This document shows, in pieces, positions 15,765 through 54,299 of a stretch of DNA of 64,000 bases. Location: the NCBI RefSeq assembly GCF_002742445.1, contig NZ_NJNQ01000006.1, forward strand, positions 62,001 through 126,000. The letters are read 5' to 3'. The position numbers were made by a program, and so were the translations under genes. Each line of letters opens with the position of its first letter. Position 1 is the stretch's first letter. Source of the DNA: Bifidobacterium sp. N4G05 (GTDB lineage Bacteria > Actinomycetota > Actinomycetes > Actinomycetales > Bifidobacteriaceae). The notes beneath the pieces were generated by a model, which ran no database searches, was not told the DNA's origin, and was given only the letters and a program-made list of their open reading frames with translations.

Positions 15765-15887
15765 GCGGACCTTCCTGATTCCTGTTAAGCATTCGCTGTG
15801 ATTGAGAACAGTTTTTACGCTGTAAGTTCGCCGCTTTCGAGTCTACCCACTATTATGACTTTTAGCCTATTAAAGGAGACTATGCTG

Positions 15888-16367
15888 ATGGCTGACGAAG
15901 AGCTGCACGAAACCACCGCGGACGATCAGAACGATCTGCAGTCCACGGGTGACACCGCTGCCGTTGAAGAGGGCAACGAAACCGTTCAGGATGCCGCTGA
16001 GGAAACCACCGTCGAATCCGCTTCCACTGATTCCGACGACGATGACGATCTCGACATTCCGATGGACCGCGTCGAAGCGGTGCTGAACGCCACTGTCGAC
16101 AAGGATGCTCTGACCCCGCAGATGCAGCGCATGATGAACCGTCAGGCGGAAAACACCCGCCGCGTGGAGGAGACCATCAAGGGCACCAAGTCCAATCCAC
16201 GCTGGTTTGTGCCTCTGTTCTGCACGCTGATGGTCATCGGCCTGATTTGGGCCGTGGTCTACTACCTAACCTCTGACTACCCGATTCCGAACATCGGCGC
16301 ATGGAATCTGGCCATCGCGTTCTCGATCATCATGATCGGATTCATCATGACCATGTGGTGGCGCTGA
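15888..16367 (+). CDS. crgA: Cell division protein CrgA
   Basis: 159 residues if started at ATG 15888 (GGAG 9 bases upstream; ATG 15882 is too close). The C-terminal half is the CrgA domain: NPRWFVPLFCTLMVIGLIW, a first membrane helix, YYLTSDYPIPNIGAWN, a second helix and MTMWWR at the end. The N-terminal 75 residues are an unusually long acidic extension (Glu/Asp/Thr rich), whereas mycobacterial CrgA is about 93 residues. CrgA recruits septal peptidoglycan machinery (FtsZ, FtsQ, FtsI, PBPA in mycobacteria). Sits divergent from the DUF881 gene. Confidence 0.9.
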   Translation: MADEELHETTADDQNDLQSTGDTAAVEEGNETVQDAAEETTVESASTDSDDDDDLDIPMDRVEAVLNATVDKDALTPQMQRMMNRQAENTRRVEETIKGTKSNPRWFVPLFCTLMVIGLIWAVVYYLTSDYPIPNIGAWNLAIAFSIIMIGFIMTMWWR

Positions 16368-16632: not shown

Positions 16633-18033
16633 TCAGATTTTCGACGTGCGCAGCAGCACATGACCGCCACCTTGCATGGTGGTACCAAACAGGTAGACCG
16701 TTCCACCGTCGGCAAGCTTCAATTTCTTGCGTAACTGCGGTGCCGTAAGCGGGAAATTACGTACCGCGATATTCGCTTGTTTCATACCATTCAGCAATCG
16801 TTTTGTATCTTTTTTATTCATGCTTCCGACTGCTTCAATCGCAAATCCTCGTCCCGGAAAATCGGCTATCTGCTGTTCCGACACGAACAAATGGCTGCTC
16901 GGACCAATCTGCGTCACACCGAATCGTTCTTCGACCAGATCGAAACAGCCGGCCTTCATAATCGACGCATTCGGCTCATACAAGTACCTTTTCGCATCCG
17001 GCAGCGGTTTGCCGCCAATGCGCAGGCCTTGCGTATATTTGGCGGAATCATAGTCGATCCGCTGATCGTCGTTCACGCAGAACACGTGCGGCGCAAGACG
17101 CCGGTACGAACCCGCACCATCCACGCTGTCGCGCGCATTCGCCTGCGCCGGCCGTCCCAGTACCAGCAGCAGTTCCTTGCATTCGTTGCCGGTGGCCACG
17201 ATATGCACTTCGCGTACGGCCCCGTCGAAATCGACGACTGCTTTGCGCCAGTCAAGCATCGGCGAGAGTTTGACCAACGTGAAGCGCGATTTGGCGAGCA
17301 GCAGGTCGCGCAATTCGAGCACATTCGGTGTGCAATCTTCGATGGCGTAAGTGCGCGAGCCATGCTCGTCGCGACGGGCCGGATCAAGGTAGATAAAGTC
17401 CACCGGATCCATCTGACTGAGGTATTCCACACCGTCGCCGCACACGATGCGAGCCTGGTCAAGCCCCAGCGCGGCCATATTGTGTTCGGCCAGTTCGCAC
17501 AGGTGCCGTTGCCGTTCCACATAAGTGGCTTGGCTGAATCCGCGCGCCAGATACGAGAAGTCCACCCCGAACCCGCCCGTCAGATCCACCATAGCCCTCT
17601 TCGCCACCAATGTGTCCGATTCTCCAGAATCGGACATCCGTAAGCCCGCTTTAGCCTCTTGAGTGTCCGATTCGGCAGAATCGGACAAGTGGAGCGCACT
17701 TTTTGCCGTTTGCATGTCCGATTCGGCAGAATCGGACACTCTGGCGTACACGGTTGCGGATGGTACGAGCAGGGTTTGTGTGATTTCGGACTTGTATTGG
17801 GCGGTGAACTGTGAGGAGCACTGCTCCATGGAAATGTGCGGAGGGTATACGATTCCCTCGCAGGAGGCCCATTGCGGCAGTTTTTTGCTTGCGATCTGCC
17901 ATCCGGCGATCTGGTCGAGCGCCAACGGCAAATCGAGTCCGTCTACGCGCTTGGCTTTCAACGCCAGTTCGCGCACGTCCTCGTCGCGATGCATCGCCAC
18001 GAATTCGCGCGTCTTGTCATTCATGATTGTCAT
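16633..18033 (-). CDS. Class I SAM-dependent methyltransferase, THUMP-like domain protein
   Basis: 466 residues resembling the actinobacterial 'class I methyltransferase with THUMP-like C-terminal domain' proteins. The SAM-binding loop is DLTGGFGVDFSYLA (from residue 150), with a second motif IYLDPARRD typical of N- or RNA-methyltransferases. The C-terminal part (about 350-466) carries the THUMP-like basic region (LRKKLKLADGG, YLFGTTMQGGG). Immediately before the SAM loop lies a 3 x 17-residue tandem repeat (residues 99-149; each starts with SDSAESD or SDSGESD) encoded by three 24-bp palindromes at exactly 51-bp spacing. The catalytic motifs are intact, so the gene is probably functional despite the insert. 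Substrate unknown. Confidence 0.8.
   Translation of the reverse strand: MTIMNDKTREFVAMHRDEDVRELALKAKRVDGLDLPLALDQIAGWQIASKKLPQWASCEGIVYPPHISMEQCSSQFTAQYKSEITQTLLVPSATVYARVSDSAESDMQTAKSALHLSDSAESDTQEAKAGLRMSDSGESDTLVAKRAMVDLTGGFGVDFSYLARGFSQATYVERQRHLCELAEHNMAALGLDQARIVCGDGVEYLSQMDPVDFIYLDPARRDEHGSRTYAIEDCTPNVLELRDLLLAKSRFTLVKLSPMLDWRKAVVDFDGAVREVHIVATGNECKELLLVLGRPAQANARDSVDGAGSYRRLAPHVFCVNDDQRIDYDSAKYTQGLRIGGKPLPDAKRYLYEPNASIMKAGCFDLVEERFGVTQIGPSSHLFVSEQQIADFPGRGFAIEAVGSMNKKDTKRLLNGMKQANIAVRNFPLTAPQLRKKLKLADGGTVYLFGTTMQGGGHVLLRTSKI
17613..17738. repeat. Three 24-bp palindromes at 51-bp period inside a CDS
   Basis: Copies at 17613-17636, 17664-17687 and 17715-17738. Each is TGTCCGATTC, four bases (TCCA or GGCA), GAATCGGACA. 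Starts are exactly 51 bases apart, so the array keeps frame and encodes three 17-residue repeats in the methyltransferase. Confidence 0.95.
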
Positions 18034-18410
18034 TGGTGACGCACCTGATTTCGTTTTGTTGATTCGTCATCTATTATGGGGATTTTTTAGTTTCGCAATA
18101 TGTGGATAAGTCGTGGATTATTGTGGACGAATGTGGATAGCGTCTATATCTTGTGGACAGCCTTGCGGCCATCCACAAGATATAGAACGGCATTTTTCCC
18201 CATTTTTTCGCCATGCACAGACGGTTTATCCACATTTTCCACCGTTGAAAAGCCGGGGAATTCGCCGTTTTGTGAATATCTCTGTGGATAATGCACCGAG
18301 TTATCCCCGGCTTACCCACAGTTCAACCCTCACTTATCCACAAGGTTATCCACAAATGTGGATAACTGCATATCCGCAATTTCCCCGAATACGTTTTTTC
18401 TACCTACCGA
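18034..18410. other. Non-coding DnaA-box cluster remote from dnaA
   Basis: No gene is supported here. Six perfect TTATCCACA/TGTGGATAA 9-mers are present at 18101, 18226, 18283, 18334, 18346 and 18357, with near matches at 18132 (TGTGGATAG) and 18301 (TTATCCCCG). The last three perfect boxes lie within 32 bases. A hairpin with 14-bp arms (18144-18185) sits between the first and second perfect boxes. The density matches or exceeds that of the dnaA-dnaN spacer in this window. See findings for interpretation. Confidence 0.85.
18144..18185. repeat. Perfect 14-bp inverted repeat in DnaA-box cluster
   Basis: CTATATCTTGTGGA (18144-18157) and TCCACAAGATATAG (18172-18185) with a 14-base loop that itself contains GCC-TTGC-GGC. 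No U-tract, so it does not look like a terminator. Confidence 0.9.
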
Positions 18411-19205
18411 CTAGAAGAACATACCAAGAAGGGGGTTTACGCGAAATGGATTACCCATATTGCATACGACGACAATCGCAATAATCACGACCAACATGAT
18501 TGCGCCGTAAATCAGCGTGCGCTGCTGCAGGCTTTTGCCGCGCAACGCATGCAGGCCCGAAACCAGCAGCCAAGCGAACACGCCTCCGATGATGAATCCG
18601 CCAACATGCGCCTGCCATGCGATGTTCGGCGTGATGATCGGCATCAGGAAGTTGATGAGCATCCAGATCATCATGGATCGAATATCGATACCAATGCGCT
18701 GGTATACCACCAGAATGGCCGCGAACAGGCCAAATAGCGCACCGGAAGCGCCGTATGAAGATGTTACCCAACCGTCTTGCGAAAACAGTGCCCAGACCAT
18801 CATGCCGGCACCTCCGCCGAGTCCTGACAGCACATATAGCGCGAGGTATGGCAGATGCCCCATCATGCGTTCCAATACGGGCCCGACGCACCACAAAGTC
18901 AGCATGTTGAAGAGAATGTGCCATAGGGAGGCCGGCTGGTGCAGGAACATTGACGTAATGAAGGTCCATGGGCGGTGGGTCGCCAGCGCGGGCATGAATA
19001 CGCCTGCGCCGACGAACGAGTTGTAGCTGGCCGGCCAGGCGATTTTCAATAGTGTTTCGACAATCCAGACCGCGACGCATATCACCATGATCGCGACGGT
19101 GATCACGGGATCGCCGTTGCGCCAGCGGTACCTCATGGAACGTGCAGAGAAGAGGTCTTTGAACGACGGGGAATCGGGAAACAGACTGAAACGTTGATAA
19201 GCCAT
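18411..19205 (-). CDS. Rhomboid family intramembrane serine protease
   Basis: 264 residues with six or seven membrane segments. The catalytic dyad is visible: Ser154 in GASGALFG and His200 in QAHVGGFIIG. WRxxTxxFLH-like text (RPWTFITSMFLH) near residue 85 is the usual rhomboid loop motif, followed by the HILFNMLTLW helix. It cleaves transmembrane proteins within the bilayer; substrates are not predictable. The ATG at 19205 has AGGG about 7 bases upstream. Upstream neighbour is divergent; its 3' end faces the DnaA-box cluster. Confidence 0.9.
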   Translation of the reverse strand: MAYQRFSLFPDSPSFKDLFSARSMRYRWRNGDPVITVAIMVICVAVWIVETLLKIAWPASYNSFVGAGVFMPALATHRPWTFITSMFLHQPASLWHILFNMLTLWCVGPVLERMMGHLPYLALYVLSGLGGGAGMMVWALFSQDGWVTSSYGASGALFGLFAAILVVYQRIGIDIRSMMIWMLINFLMPIITPNIAWQAHVGGFIIGGVFAWLLVSGLHALRGKSLQQRTLIYGAIMLVVIIAIVVVCNMGNPFRVNPLLGMFF

Positions 19206-19391
19206 GTTTCAACCCTACTGGAACGTGCGAATCCGCGAATCCGCGAAATCATTGCAAATGATTGCATTCTTGTGAATCCTCGGCGCGTAAATCCACCCAA
19301 TCAACACATTCAAGGAATTAATATAGTGAACAGAGTTGGCTTGAACGAGCAGGTCAGCCAATGTTCGCCGATATTTGGGAAAGGAGCCGTC

Positions 19392-19619
19392 ATGGAGAAC
19401 AAGTCTTCTAACGGTTGGAAGTTCTTCGCACTGCTCTTCGGAGCTTTGCTTGCCGGTGTCATCGGTCTGTATGTGTACAAGCAGCAGAATCCGGATTACG
19501 ATCCATGGGAGGAGCCGTGGGAGAACAGCTCGTCTCCTGTCGATCTTGGTCTGACCAAGGATGCCGAAGAAGCCAAGGAAGCCGACACTGAGGCCGCTGC
19601 CGCTCCCGAAGCCGCCTGA
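19392..19619 (+). CDS. Small single-pass membrane protein, unknown function
   Basis: 75 residues from ATG 19392, chosen because AAAGGAG precedes it; upstream in-frame ATGs lack a binding site. One membrane helix (about 8-28, GWKFFALLFGALLAGVIGLYVYK in part) and an acidic, Ala/Glu-rich cytoplasmic or extracytoplasmic tail with DYDPWEEPWEN. I do not recognise a family. It is a monocistronic unit between a divergent rhomboid gene and a strong terminator. Confidence 0.75.
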   Translation: MENKSSNGWKFFALLFGALLAGVIGLYVYKQQNPDYDPWEEPWENSSSPVDLGLTKDAEEAKEADTEAAAAPEAA

Positions 19620-47563: not shown

Positions 47564-48765
47564 CAGCGGTCACCCTCCCTTCCTGCCGCAAGCTGCGCCA
47601 TCATCGCCACCAAATCGTTATCGCCGCCATCTTGCAATTGCCGACGCAACGCGGCCACGTCAATCACATGCGCGTGCACGGCGTCCGTTTGCGGAATGTC
47701 GCTTGCCGCGGCGACGGTGATCAGCACTTGATCCTGCCGCATCGCAAAATCGAGGATCTGCCCACGGCGGGATTCGTCAAGCTGTGCGAACACATCGTCG
47801 AGAATCACGATCGGCTTGCTTTCGAATTGTGCGGAAACCGCTTCATATAGCGCCATTTTCAACGCCAAAGCCATGGTCCACATCTCGCCGTTGGACGCGA
47901 ATTCACGGGCGGGCATGTCGTTAAGCAGCAAGGTCAGATCATCGCGATGCGGGCCGATCAGATTCTGCCCGCGTGCCACTTCTCCCGGGTAGATGCGTTG
48001 GAAATGACGGCTGATTTCCGCGCCCGGATCGTCGAACAGCATCACTTCGTCGAAGGATGGCTCGTATGCGAGCGCCGCCCGCTCACCGTCGCCTGCCAAA
48101 GATGCGTAGATTCGCGCGAAAGGCTCCCCTAAGCGTGTGATTACATCGTTGCGTTCCCGTGTCAATCTCATGCCGAGATCGATGAATTGTCCTGTCCAGA
48201 TTTCCAACCCGCTTAAAACCGTCTGCTGGCTGTATTGCAGATCGGTATTCGTGCCGTCGCCGAGTTGTTTGAGCAGTGCCGTGCGTTGTTTCGCCACGTG
48301 TGTGAATTGTTGCAGCAGCTGCGCGTAGTGGGGGAGTAGCAGGGAAGCGGCCTGGTTGATGAAGTTGCGTCGGGTTGCTGGGTCGCCTGCTACCAAACGC
48401 TGATCTTCGGGGGTAAAGGAAACGGAGGGCGTGCGCCCGATGAGATCGCGCATGTATTGCGATTTTCCGCCATCGATTCGCGCCCGATTCGCACCTCGCG
48501 CCACGATGGTCGCTTCGTAGGTGTGTTGCGTTTCGTCATCTTCCACATTGGCTCGGATGGTGGCCGAAGCGCACCCTTTTTCGATTAGCGGCAATGATGA
48601 TGACGTGCGATGGCTTGATCCTGTGGAAAGCACTTCGACGGCTTCCACAATATTGGTTTTGCCGAGTCCGTTGGCTCCTTGCAGAATGTTGATTCCCGGT
48701 TCGAAGTCGAGCACGCAATGTTCCCAAGAACGGTAGTGGTCGAGCGCTAGGCGGGAAATATACAT
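47563..48765 (-). CDS. recF: DNA replication and repair protein RecF
   Basis: 400 residues. SMC/ABC-type ATPase with Walker A GANGLGKTNIVEA near residue 30, DLTLLLNDMPAREFASNGE-type signature and Walker B IVILDDVFAQLD near 320. Assists loading of RecA at gaps. Preceded by dnaN and overlapping DUF721. Length is typical. Confidence 0.95.
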   Translation of the reverse strand: MYISRLALDHYRSWEHCVLDFEPGINILQGANGLGKTNIVEAVEVLSTGSSHRTSSSLPLIEKGCASATIRANVEDDETQHTYEATIVARGANRARIDGGKSQYMRDLIGRTPSVSFTPEDQRLVAGDPATRRNFINQAASLLLPHYAQLLQQFTHVAKQRTALLKQLGDGTNTDLQYSQQTVLSGLEIWTGQFIDLGMRLTRERNDVITRLGEPFARIYASLAGDGERAALAYEPSFDEVMLFDDPGAEISRHFQRIYPGEVARGQNLIGPHRDDLTLLLNDMPAREFASNGEMWTMALALKMALYEAVSAQFESKPIVILDDVFAQLDESRRGQILDFAMRQDQVLITVAAASDIPQTDAVHAHVIDVAALRRQLQDGGDNDLVAMMAQLAAGREGDR

Positions 48766-54267: not shown

Positions 54268-54299
54268 GTGTCCCGTGTTTCACGTGAAACGCGGGACAC
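54268..54299 (+). terminator. Palindrome after yidC containing a parS-like site
   Basis: GTGTCCCG (54268-54275) and CGGGACAC (54292-54299) flank TGTTTCACGTGAAACG; may act both as terminator and as ParB site. Confidence 0.6.
54276..54291. promoter_or_regulatory. parS-like site 1
   Basis: TGTTTCACGTGAAACG: 15 of 16 bases match the canonical TGTTTCACGTGAAACA. Lies within the yidC-jag spacer. Confidence 0.93.

Follow-up and report, generated by a model that had tools for sequence, protein, structure and literature searches.

What is a dense cluster of DnaA boxes doing about 32 kb away from dnaA, in a spacer that contains no gene? The question is raised by the 64-kb stretch of bifidobacterial DNA analysed here (the whole of which we call the window), and it bears on the timing of chromosome replication in actinomycetes, a group of antibiotic producers, gut symbionts and major pathogens in which this timing is poorly understood. 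Judged from comparative sequence analysis, the cluster is probably a conserved DnaA regulatory site and not an origin. It resembles an enlarged, bifidobacterial version of a putative DnaA-binding module that many actinomycetes keep near the replication origin, beside the cell-division gene crgA, and the bifidobacterial cluster thereby gains an explanation other than a second origin.

A sequence-only reading of the window had reported six perfect TTATCCACA 9-mers within about 265 bases of a gene-free region, and both parts of this description are borne out: the six boxes span positions 18101–18365 and lie inside a spacer of 377 bp without genes (Table 1). The window contains 16 perfect boxes in total, compared with 0.23 expected after shuffling, and the whole genome (2.07 Mb) contains 53, together with six copies of the backwards pattern. 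At this genome-wide box rate, the Poisson probability of finding at least six perfect boxes in 265 bp is about 1e-16, so that the cluster is not due to chance, in agreement with what had been supposed. The count does not, as had been stated, equal that of the dnaA–dnaN spacer, which has five perfect boxes and not six. The AT content of the cluster spacer (56%) is similar to that of the dnaA–dnaN spacer, compared with 44% for the window. When the window was aligned with four close relatives, all five sequences had identical copies of the four perfect boxes in the aligned part (18283–18365). A search of positions 17000–19500 against Rfam matched no family. The cluster also holds an inverted repeat (Table 1), and a similar repeat with some changes in its arms is present in four close relatives.

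Table 1. Features of the DnaA-box cluster and of its neighbourhood, in window positions.
Feature	Position	Strand	Remark
Gene-free spacer holding the DnaA-box cluster	18034..18410	none	
Three-box core with flanks	18330..18371	-	38.3 bits, model R1
Perfect DnaA box, core box I	18357..18365	-	Opposite to boxes II and III
Perfect DnaA box, core box II	18346..18354	+	
Perfect DnaA box, core box III	18334..18342	+	
One-mismatch DnaA box	18312..18320	+	TTACCCACA
Perfect DnaA box	18283..18291	-	
Perfect DnaA box	18226..18234	+	
One-mismatch DnaA box	18132..18140	-	CTATCCACA
Perfect DnaA box	18101..18109	-	
Inverted repeat within the cluster	18143..18186	none	20-nt arms (90% complementary), 4-nt loop
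Rhomboid gene	18411..19205	-	PF01694; 3' end adjoins the cluster
THUMP-like methyltransferase gene	16633..18033	-	Between crgA and the cluster
crgA	15798..16367	+	PF06781; neighbour marking the site throughout the class

Because the rhomboid and methyltransferase genes are both encoded on the minus strand, the spacer lies downstream of the rhomboid gene and not upstream of it, as the sequence-only reading had placed it; it adjoins the rhomboid 3' end and the methyltransferase 5' end, the cluster being situated directly upstream of the methyltransferase start. Genes of the same strand (sortase, DUF881, methyltransferase, rhomboid and phosphorylase) flank the cluster on both sides, and crgA is followed leftwards by the DUF881 and sortase genes. 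Within the methyltransferase reading frame, a 24-bp palindrome, TGTCCGATTCNNCAGAATCGGACA, recurs at 17613–17636, 17664–17687 and 17715–17738 with a pitch of 51 bp (SDSAESD repeats). For its 20-bp core, the genome yields 39 listed matches (a count in which exact palindromes appear on both strands), all of them on three contigs (C9:1640–58483, C11 and C4:321042–323631); on the origin contig, no listed match lies to the right of the DnaA cluster.

Conservation of the spacer in other bifidobacteria had been proposed as a check. The rhomboid gene is present in 111 of the 112 genomes of the genus, and 110 loci, the window's own included, were examined, leaving out one genome with a split match (G077) and one with no rhomboid match (G079). 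In 89 of the 110 loci, the 1.5 kb 3' of the rhomboid stop hold one or more perfect boxes, and every one of these 89 carries at least three boxes at up to one mismatch over the same distance. The other 21 loci have two to six perfect boxes, grouped within 600 bp, at another place near crgA or the rhomboid gene, displaced after gene insertion, inversion or relocation; box loss in these 21 genus members was rejected once the crgA side was included. Boxes are therefore kept at the crgA/rhomboid locus in 110 of 110 loci, the opposite of the loss in close relatives that the sequence-only reading had named as a refutation. The persistence extends to strongly rearranged surroundings. In nine genomes (G082–G090), in which dnaA was also placed, the rhomboid gene and crgA are on opposite sides of dnaA, with the boxes on the side of crgA; local gene order is changed in three others (G064, G033 and G018); the cluster is 3–6 kb away from crgA in G025, G085 and G088; and in G065 it is found at a contig end, 2.7 kb from the rhomboid gene. 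A methyltransferase match is absent from 67 of the 110 genus stretches. As to the two genomes left out, model R1 (see below) finds a match of 21.3 bits adjoining the rhomboid gene in G077, and the sole listed match in G079 is near dnaA.

Beyond the genus, the site becomes less regular. For the other genera of the family, 20 loci were analysed: a perfect box lies no more than 1 kb 3' of the rhomboid gene in 11 of them and is missing from this interval in nine; two of the nine have perfect boxes 1.2–2.8 kb away. No perfect box was found in any of the four loci of genus g120, despite convergent crgA and rhomboid genes, nor in two wider stretches of that genus. Together with the nine family loci, this indicates that the site is not indispensable. 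In the class, crgA is present in 289 of 296 genomes, and we analysed 67 crgA loci, a non-random set made up of the genomes of the 30 top-scoring crgA matches and 37 chosen for family spread. TTATCCACA or TTGTCCACA occurs between positions -20 and +800 of the crgA stop in 49 of these loci and within 2.5 kb 3' of crgA in two more (51 of 67 in total); the remaining 16 have no perfect box within 2.5 kb of the crgA stop. Summed over the 67 loci, TTATCCACA is found 49 times in the 54 kb near the crgA stop and seven times in the other 463 kb, TTGTCCACA 21 times near the stop and three times elsewhere, and the reversed patterns once and twice, respectively; perfect 9-mers are about 60 times denser at the crgA site than in the DNA that flanks it in these loci. 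A convergent rhomboid gene lies within 2.5 kb of crgA in 44 of the 67 loci, and six genomes that are Streptomyces-like in size and GC content have three boxes each in the crgA gap. The distance from crgA to dnaA ranges from 10 to 177 kb (24 genomes with both genes placed). Searches of the open-licence literature for crgA with DnaA box, or for DARS2 with actinobacterial names, yielded no paper on this site among the matches listed.

What is kept at the site is an arrangement as well as a number of boxes. Read on the minus strand, the core consists of box I in forward orientation, a gap of 2–3 bp (2 bp in the window), box II in reverse orientation, a gap of 3 bp and box III, again reversed. When the gaps were left free, 116 of 120 triples in the genus loci had gaps of (2,3) or (3,3), a count taken from 142 partly overlapping loci in which the triples of one genome can appear repeatedly. 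If one mismatch is allowed per box and no more than two per triple, 75 of the 110 genus rhomboid loci have a triple; the window holds one (18334–18365) and none in its clusters around dnaA. The flanks are shared by many species as well, GTAG preceding box I and CTTGGG following box III. Around 79 perfect boxes from the class loci, an inverted box (at least seven of nine matches) precedes the perfect box by 23 bp in 27 cases, and a box of the same direction precedes it by 13 or 12 bp in 20 and 16 cases, compared with a mean of 1.35 over offsets.

We built a model of the core and its flanks, R1, from 48 sequences (19 from the genus and 29 from the class). Its best place in the window's genome is the core of the cluster; ranks two and three go to sites upstream of dnaB (25.1 and 21.5 bits), and the places at oriC come next with 19.8 bits and less. 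Over 197 class genomes, 59 had both a best match and crgA placed, and in these the match lies at most 2.5 kb 3' of crgA in 48 and elsewhere in 11; all 33 best matches of at least 30 bits are at crgA. Thirty-two of the 48 genomes are outside the training set, many of them sharing a family with it. Fourteen further best matches were checked out of 61 without a placed crgA, 13 of which lie at crgA or at the 3' end of the rhomboid gene and one at dnaA; of the 11 genomes with the match elsewhere, four were checked (G136, G166, G210 and G262), giving one match beside dnaN and three that matched no gene tried. A second model, R2, was trained on genus cores only and run over 40 other genomes, where its best match is at oriC in 13, at crgA in 11, elsewhere in five and unplaced in 11, a crgA match being listed in 25 of the 40. 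As the best match of R2 is often at oriC, the core resembles an oriC-like array and not a unique signature.

A loose three-box pattern, scanned over named genomes without the leading G (the version with the leading G misses the window itself), gave at least 119 stretches, 80 of which were taken in. Among the matches listed, the pattern lies 9–304 bp 3' of crgA in 37 of 42 actinobacterial records, including Streptomyces, Mycobacterium, Mycolicibacterium, Amycolatopsis, Microbacterium, Curtobacterium, Cryobacterium, Arcanobacterium and Nanopelagicaceae; the other five are a Corynebacterium record with the pattern 434 bp from a rhomboid match, two records with it near dnaA, a Rubrobacter record with it near yidC and rsmG, and an Acidimicrobiales stretch with parA only. 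The non-actinobacterial records listed have dnaA in the same stretch in 23 of 38 cases, and Lachnospiraceae, Blautia, Selenomonas and Bacillus records among them carry the pattern at a Firmicutes oriC beside dnaA, whereas the module in the window is 32 kb away from that gene. On the strength of its sequence, the core is thus best described as a DnaA array of the oriC type, usually situated at crgA in the actinomycetes sampled, and not as the signature of one function. As a near-fixed module beside crgA in many families that a whole-genome search finds again, it offers a defined target of about 45 bp, with which sequestration and reactivation of the initiator can be tested against each other outside the proteobacteria.

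Specificity of the triple for crgA was rejected, as triples also occur beside dnaA in other bacteria, in phage contigs and upstream of dnaB. With a slightly stricter pattern, 108 phage-contig stretches contain DnaA-box triples (80 listed, L279–L358). Two three-box modules lie upstream of dnaB, beside glnD, in the window's genome (L259 6640–6720, corresponding to G000 C11:15639–15720), and within the family the best model match is upstream of dnaB in three of five g120 genomes and in two g127 genomes.

The sequence-only reading had offered titration or reactivation of DnaA as possible roles. Boxes at 110 of 110 genus loci and 51 of 67 class loci uphold a candidate DnaA-binding regulatory locus, the two roles themselves not being separable by sequence. 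Such a module near the origin probably helps to set the frequency of chromosome replication starts. In the mechanism that we propose, DnaA would assemble on the three-box core and the surrounding boxes. Since the site is so near to dnaA, it would be replicated soon after initiation, and the number of high-affinity DnaA sites would rise after each start; the added sites would be expected to draw free DnaA off oriC and to delay the next start, a sequestration resembling the effect of datA. DnaA binding at the site, its negative effect and the importance of its dosage are what we infer here. The observations behind this proposal are the boxes, their fixed geometry, their persistence in the genus and in many families of the class, the nearness to dnaA and the convergent gene context in many lineages. 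Two reviews state, in excerpt, that both B. subtilis and S. coelicolor use clusters of DnaA boxes close to oriC to repress untimely initiation, and for this reason we lean towards sequestration as the main mode of a conserved DnaA regulatory site, with reactivation as its main rival. Against the proposal stand the 16 class loci without a perfect box, the orientation of core box I, which is inverted whereas the essential boxes of datA point one way, the tally of R2 best matches at oriC and crgA (13 vs 11), the closeness of a GC-skew dip at 18893 and the methyltransferase gene directly downstream.

That skew dip is one of several points from which one could argue that the site is a second origin, or a half of oriC that has become detached and contributes to unwinding. 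The dip lies on a flat plateau, and its depth (-1198) nearly reaches the contig minimum of the cumulative GC skew (-1247 at 48219), so that the skew is compatible with a second origin. Box number and AT content of the cluster spacer match those of the dnaA–dnaN spacer; its most AT-rich 40-mer is 72% AT (at 18054), compared with 80% there. In 23 of the 38 non-actinobacterial records mentioned above, the loose pattern and dnaA are on one stretch, and B. longum is reported, in the excerpted text of PMC2430713, to have three oriC clusters and seven box types. In the window, however, three box groups are already present beside dnaA (five perfect boxes in dnaA–dnaN, one in rpmH–dnaA and four in rsmG–parA), gene direction switches a single time, at dnaA/rpmH, the cluster being flanked left and right by genes of one strand, and across genomes the distance between site and dnaA varies as widely as noted above. 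The second origin element of the sequence-only reading is thus unsupported by gene order or by distance to dnaA, and we regard it as quite improbable. Much the same holds for a DnaA-controlled switch of a neighbouring gene, be it as methyltransferase promoter or as a roadblock at the crgA and rhomboid ends, which we consider improbable even though the cluster directly precedes the methyltransferase start in the window and two similar modules occupy a promoter-type place upstream of dnaB. Boxes persist in the 67 genus stretches without a methyltransferase match and in the nine genomes with the rhomboid gene across dnaA, which argues against control of either gene, and they also persist in the three genomes in which the cluster is 3–6 kb from crgA. 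Where the rhomboid gene is convergent, as in the 44 class loci, a promoter is not expected, and the methyltransferase promoter was set aside as primary role given the persistence of boxes without a visible methyltransferase. A functionless box-rich stretch, kept by chance or passive inheritance, would fit the absence of boxes from all four g120 loci and from 16 class loci, but it is hard to reconcile with an about 60-fold higher density of perfect 9-mers at one place across families and with near-fixed gaps between the core boxes, and is highly improbable. With promoter, neighbour control and second origin argued against, control of DnaA remains.

Within control of DnaA, the counterpart of sequestration is a DARS-like site, on which ADP-DnaA bound head-to-head to boxes I and II would lose its nucleotide, leave as apo-DnaA and rebind ATP, so that initiation is promoted. 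The three-box topology, with box I opposite to II and III, is the one described for the E. coli DARS cores (excerpts of PMC5742627 and PMC8682772), the II–III gap of 3 bp is that of DARS1 and DARS2 in MG1655, and the geometry is kept more tightly than plain titration requires. The I–II gap, however, is 2–3 bp compared with 5 bp in MG1655, for which reason membership in DARS was not assigned; R1 reaches at most 8.3 bits in the DARS1 and DARS2 stretches; DARS1 and DARS2 are far from oriC in E. coli, whereas the site here is near; and similar triples occur at oriC of other actinomycetes and beside dnaA in other bacteria, the latter indicating that the core is not specific to DARS. We therefore hold a DARS-like site to be unlikely. 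Conservation of the DARS2 core itself has been described for the gamma-proteobacterial relatives of E. coli (excerpt of PMC4245941). A broader scheme, which we put forward tentatively, would make the crgA 3' module an ancient oriC-type DnaA assembly module that was detached from the origin, acts on the nucleotide state of DnaA in a DARS- or datA-like manner and ties initiation to a division locus near the origin; bifidobacteria would have an enlarged array, and the pair upstream of dnaB would complete a two-site system comparable to DARS1/DARS2.

Sequestration by a conserved DnaA site, the reading we prefer, has its closest parallels near the origins of other bacteria. Like the cluster, E. coli datA is non-coding, near oriC and equipped with several DnaA boxes, but its essential boxes all have one direction and are accompanied by an IHF site (PMC5742627, in excerpt). 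DnaA-box clusters near oriC of B. subtilis (Okumura et al, 2012) are reported in the two reviews to restrain initiation. The S. coelicolor clusters to which the reviews refer are likewise DnaA boxes near the origin and outside oriC, and Streptomyces records carry the three-box module 3' of crgA among the matches listed; bifidobacteria differ in having more boxes. A search of the open-licence literature for H69 or D78, two names of Streptomyces clusters, together with DnaA boxes found no paper. Smulczyk-Krawczyszyn et al. reportedly described in 2006 the Streptomyces clusters H69, H24 and D78, the phenotype being that of D78. We take H69 to be a cosmid that possibly carries crgA, and the Streptomyces counterpart of the site may thus be H69. 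If the Streptomyces version is one of the 2006 clusters, that work becomes linked to a far wider element. The crgA gene has the number SCO3854 in the excerpted text of PMC4255298.

Two features of the surrounding contig may be added. To the left of the origin, from about -14000 to 48000, the cumulative GC skew stays almost flat for about 60 kb; in B. longum, an earlier paper put oriC slightly off the asymmetry point. On the opposite side of dnaA, four perfect GTTTCACGTGAAAC sites, which we take to be parS-like, are located at 54277, 54941, 57595 and 59830.
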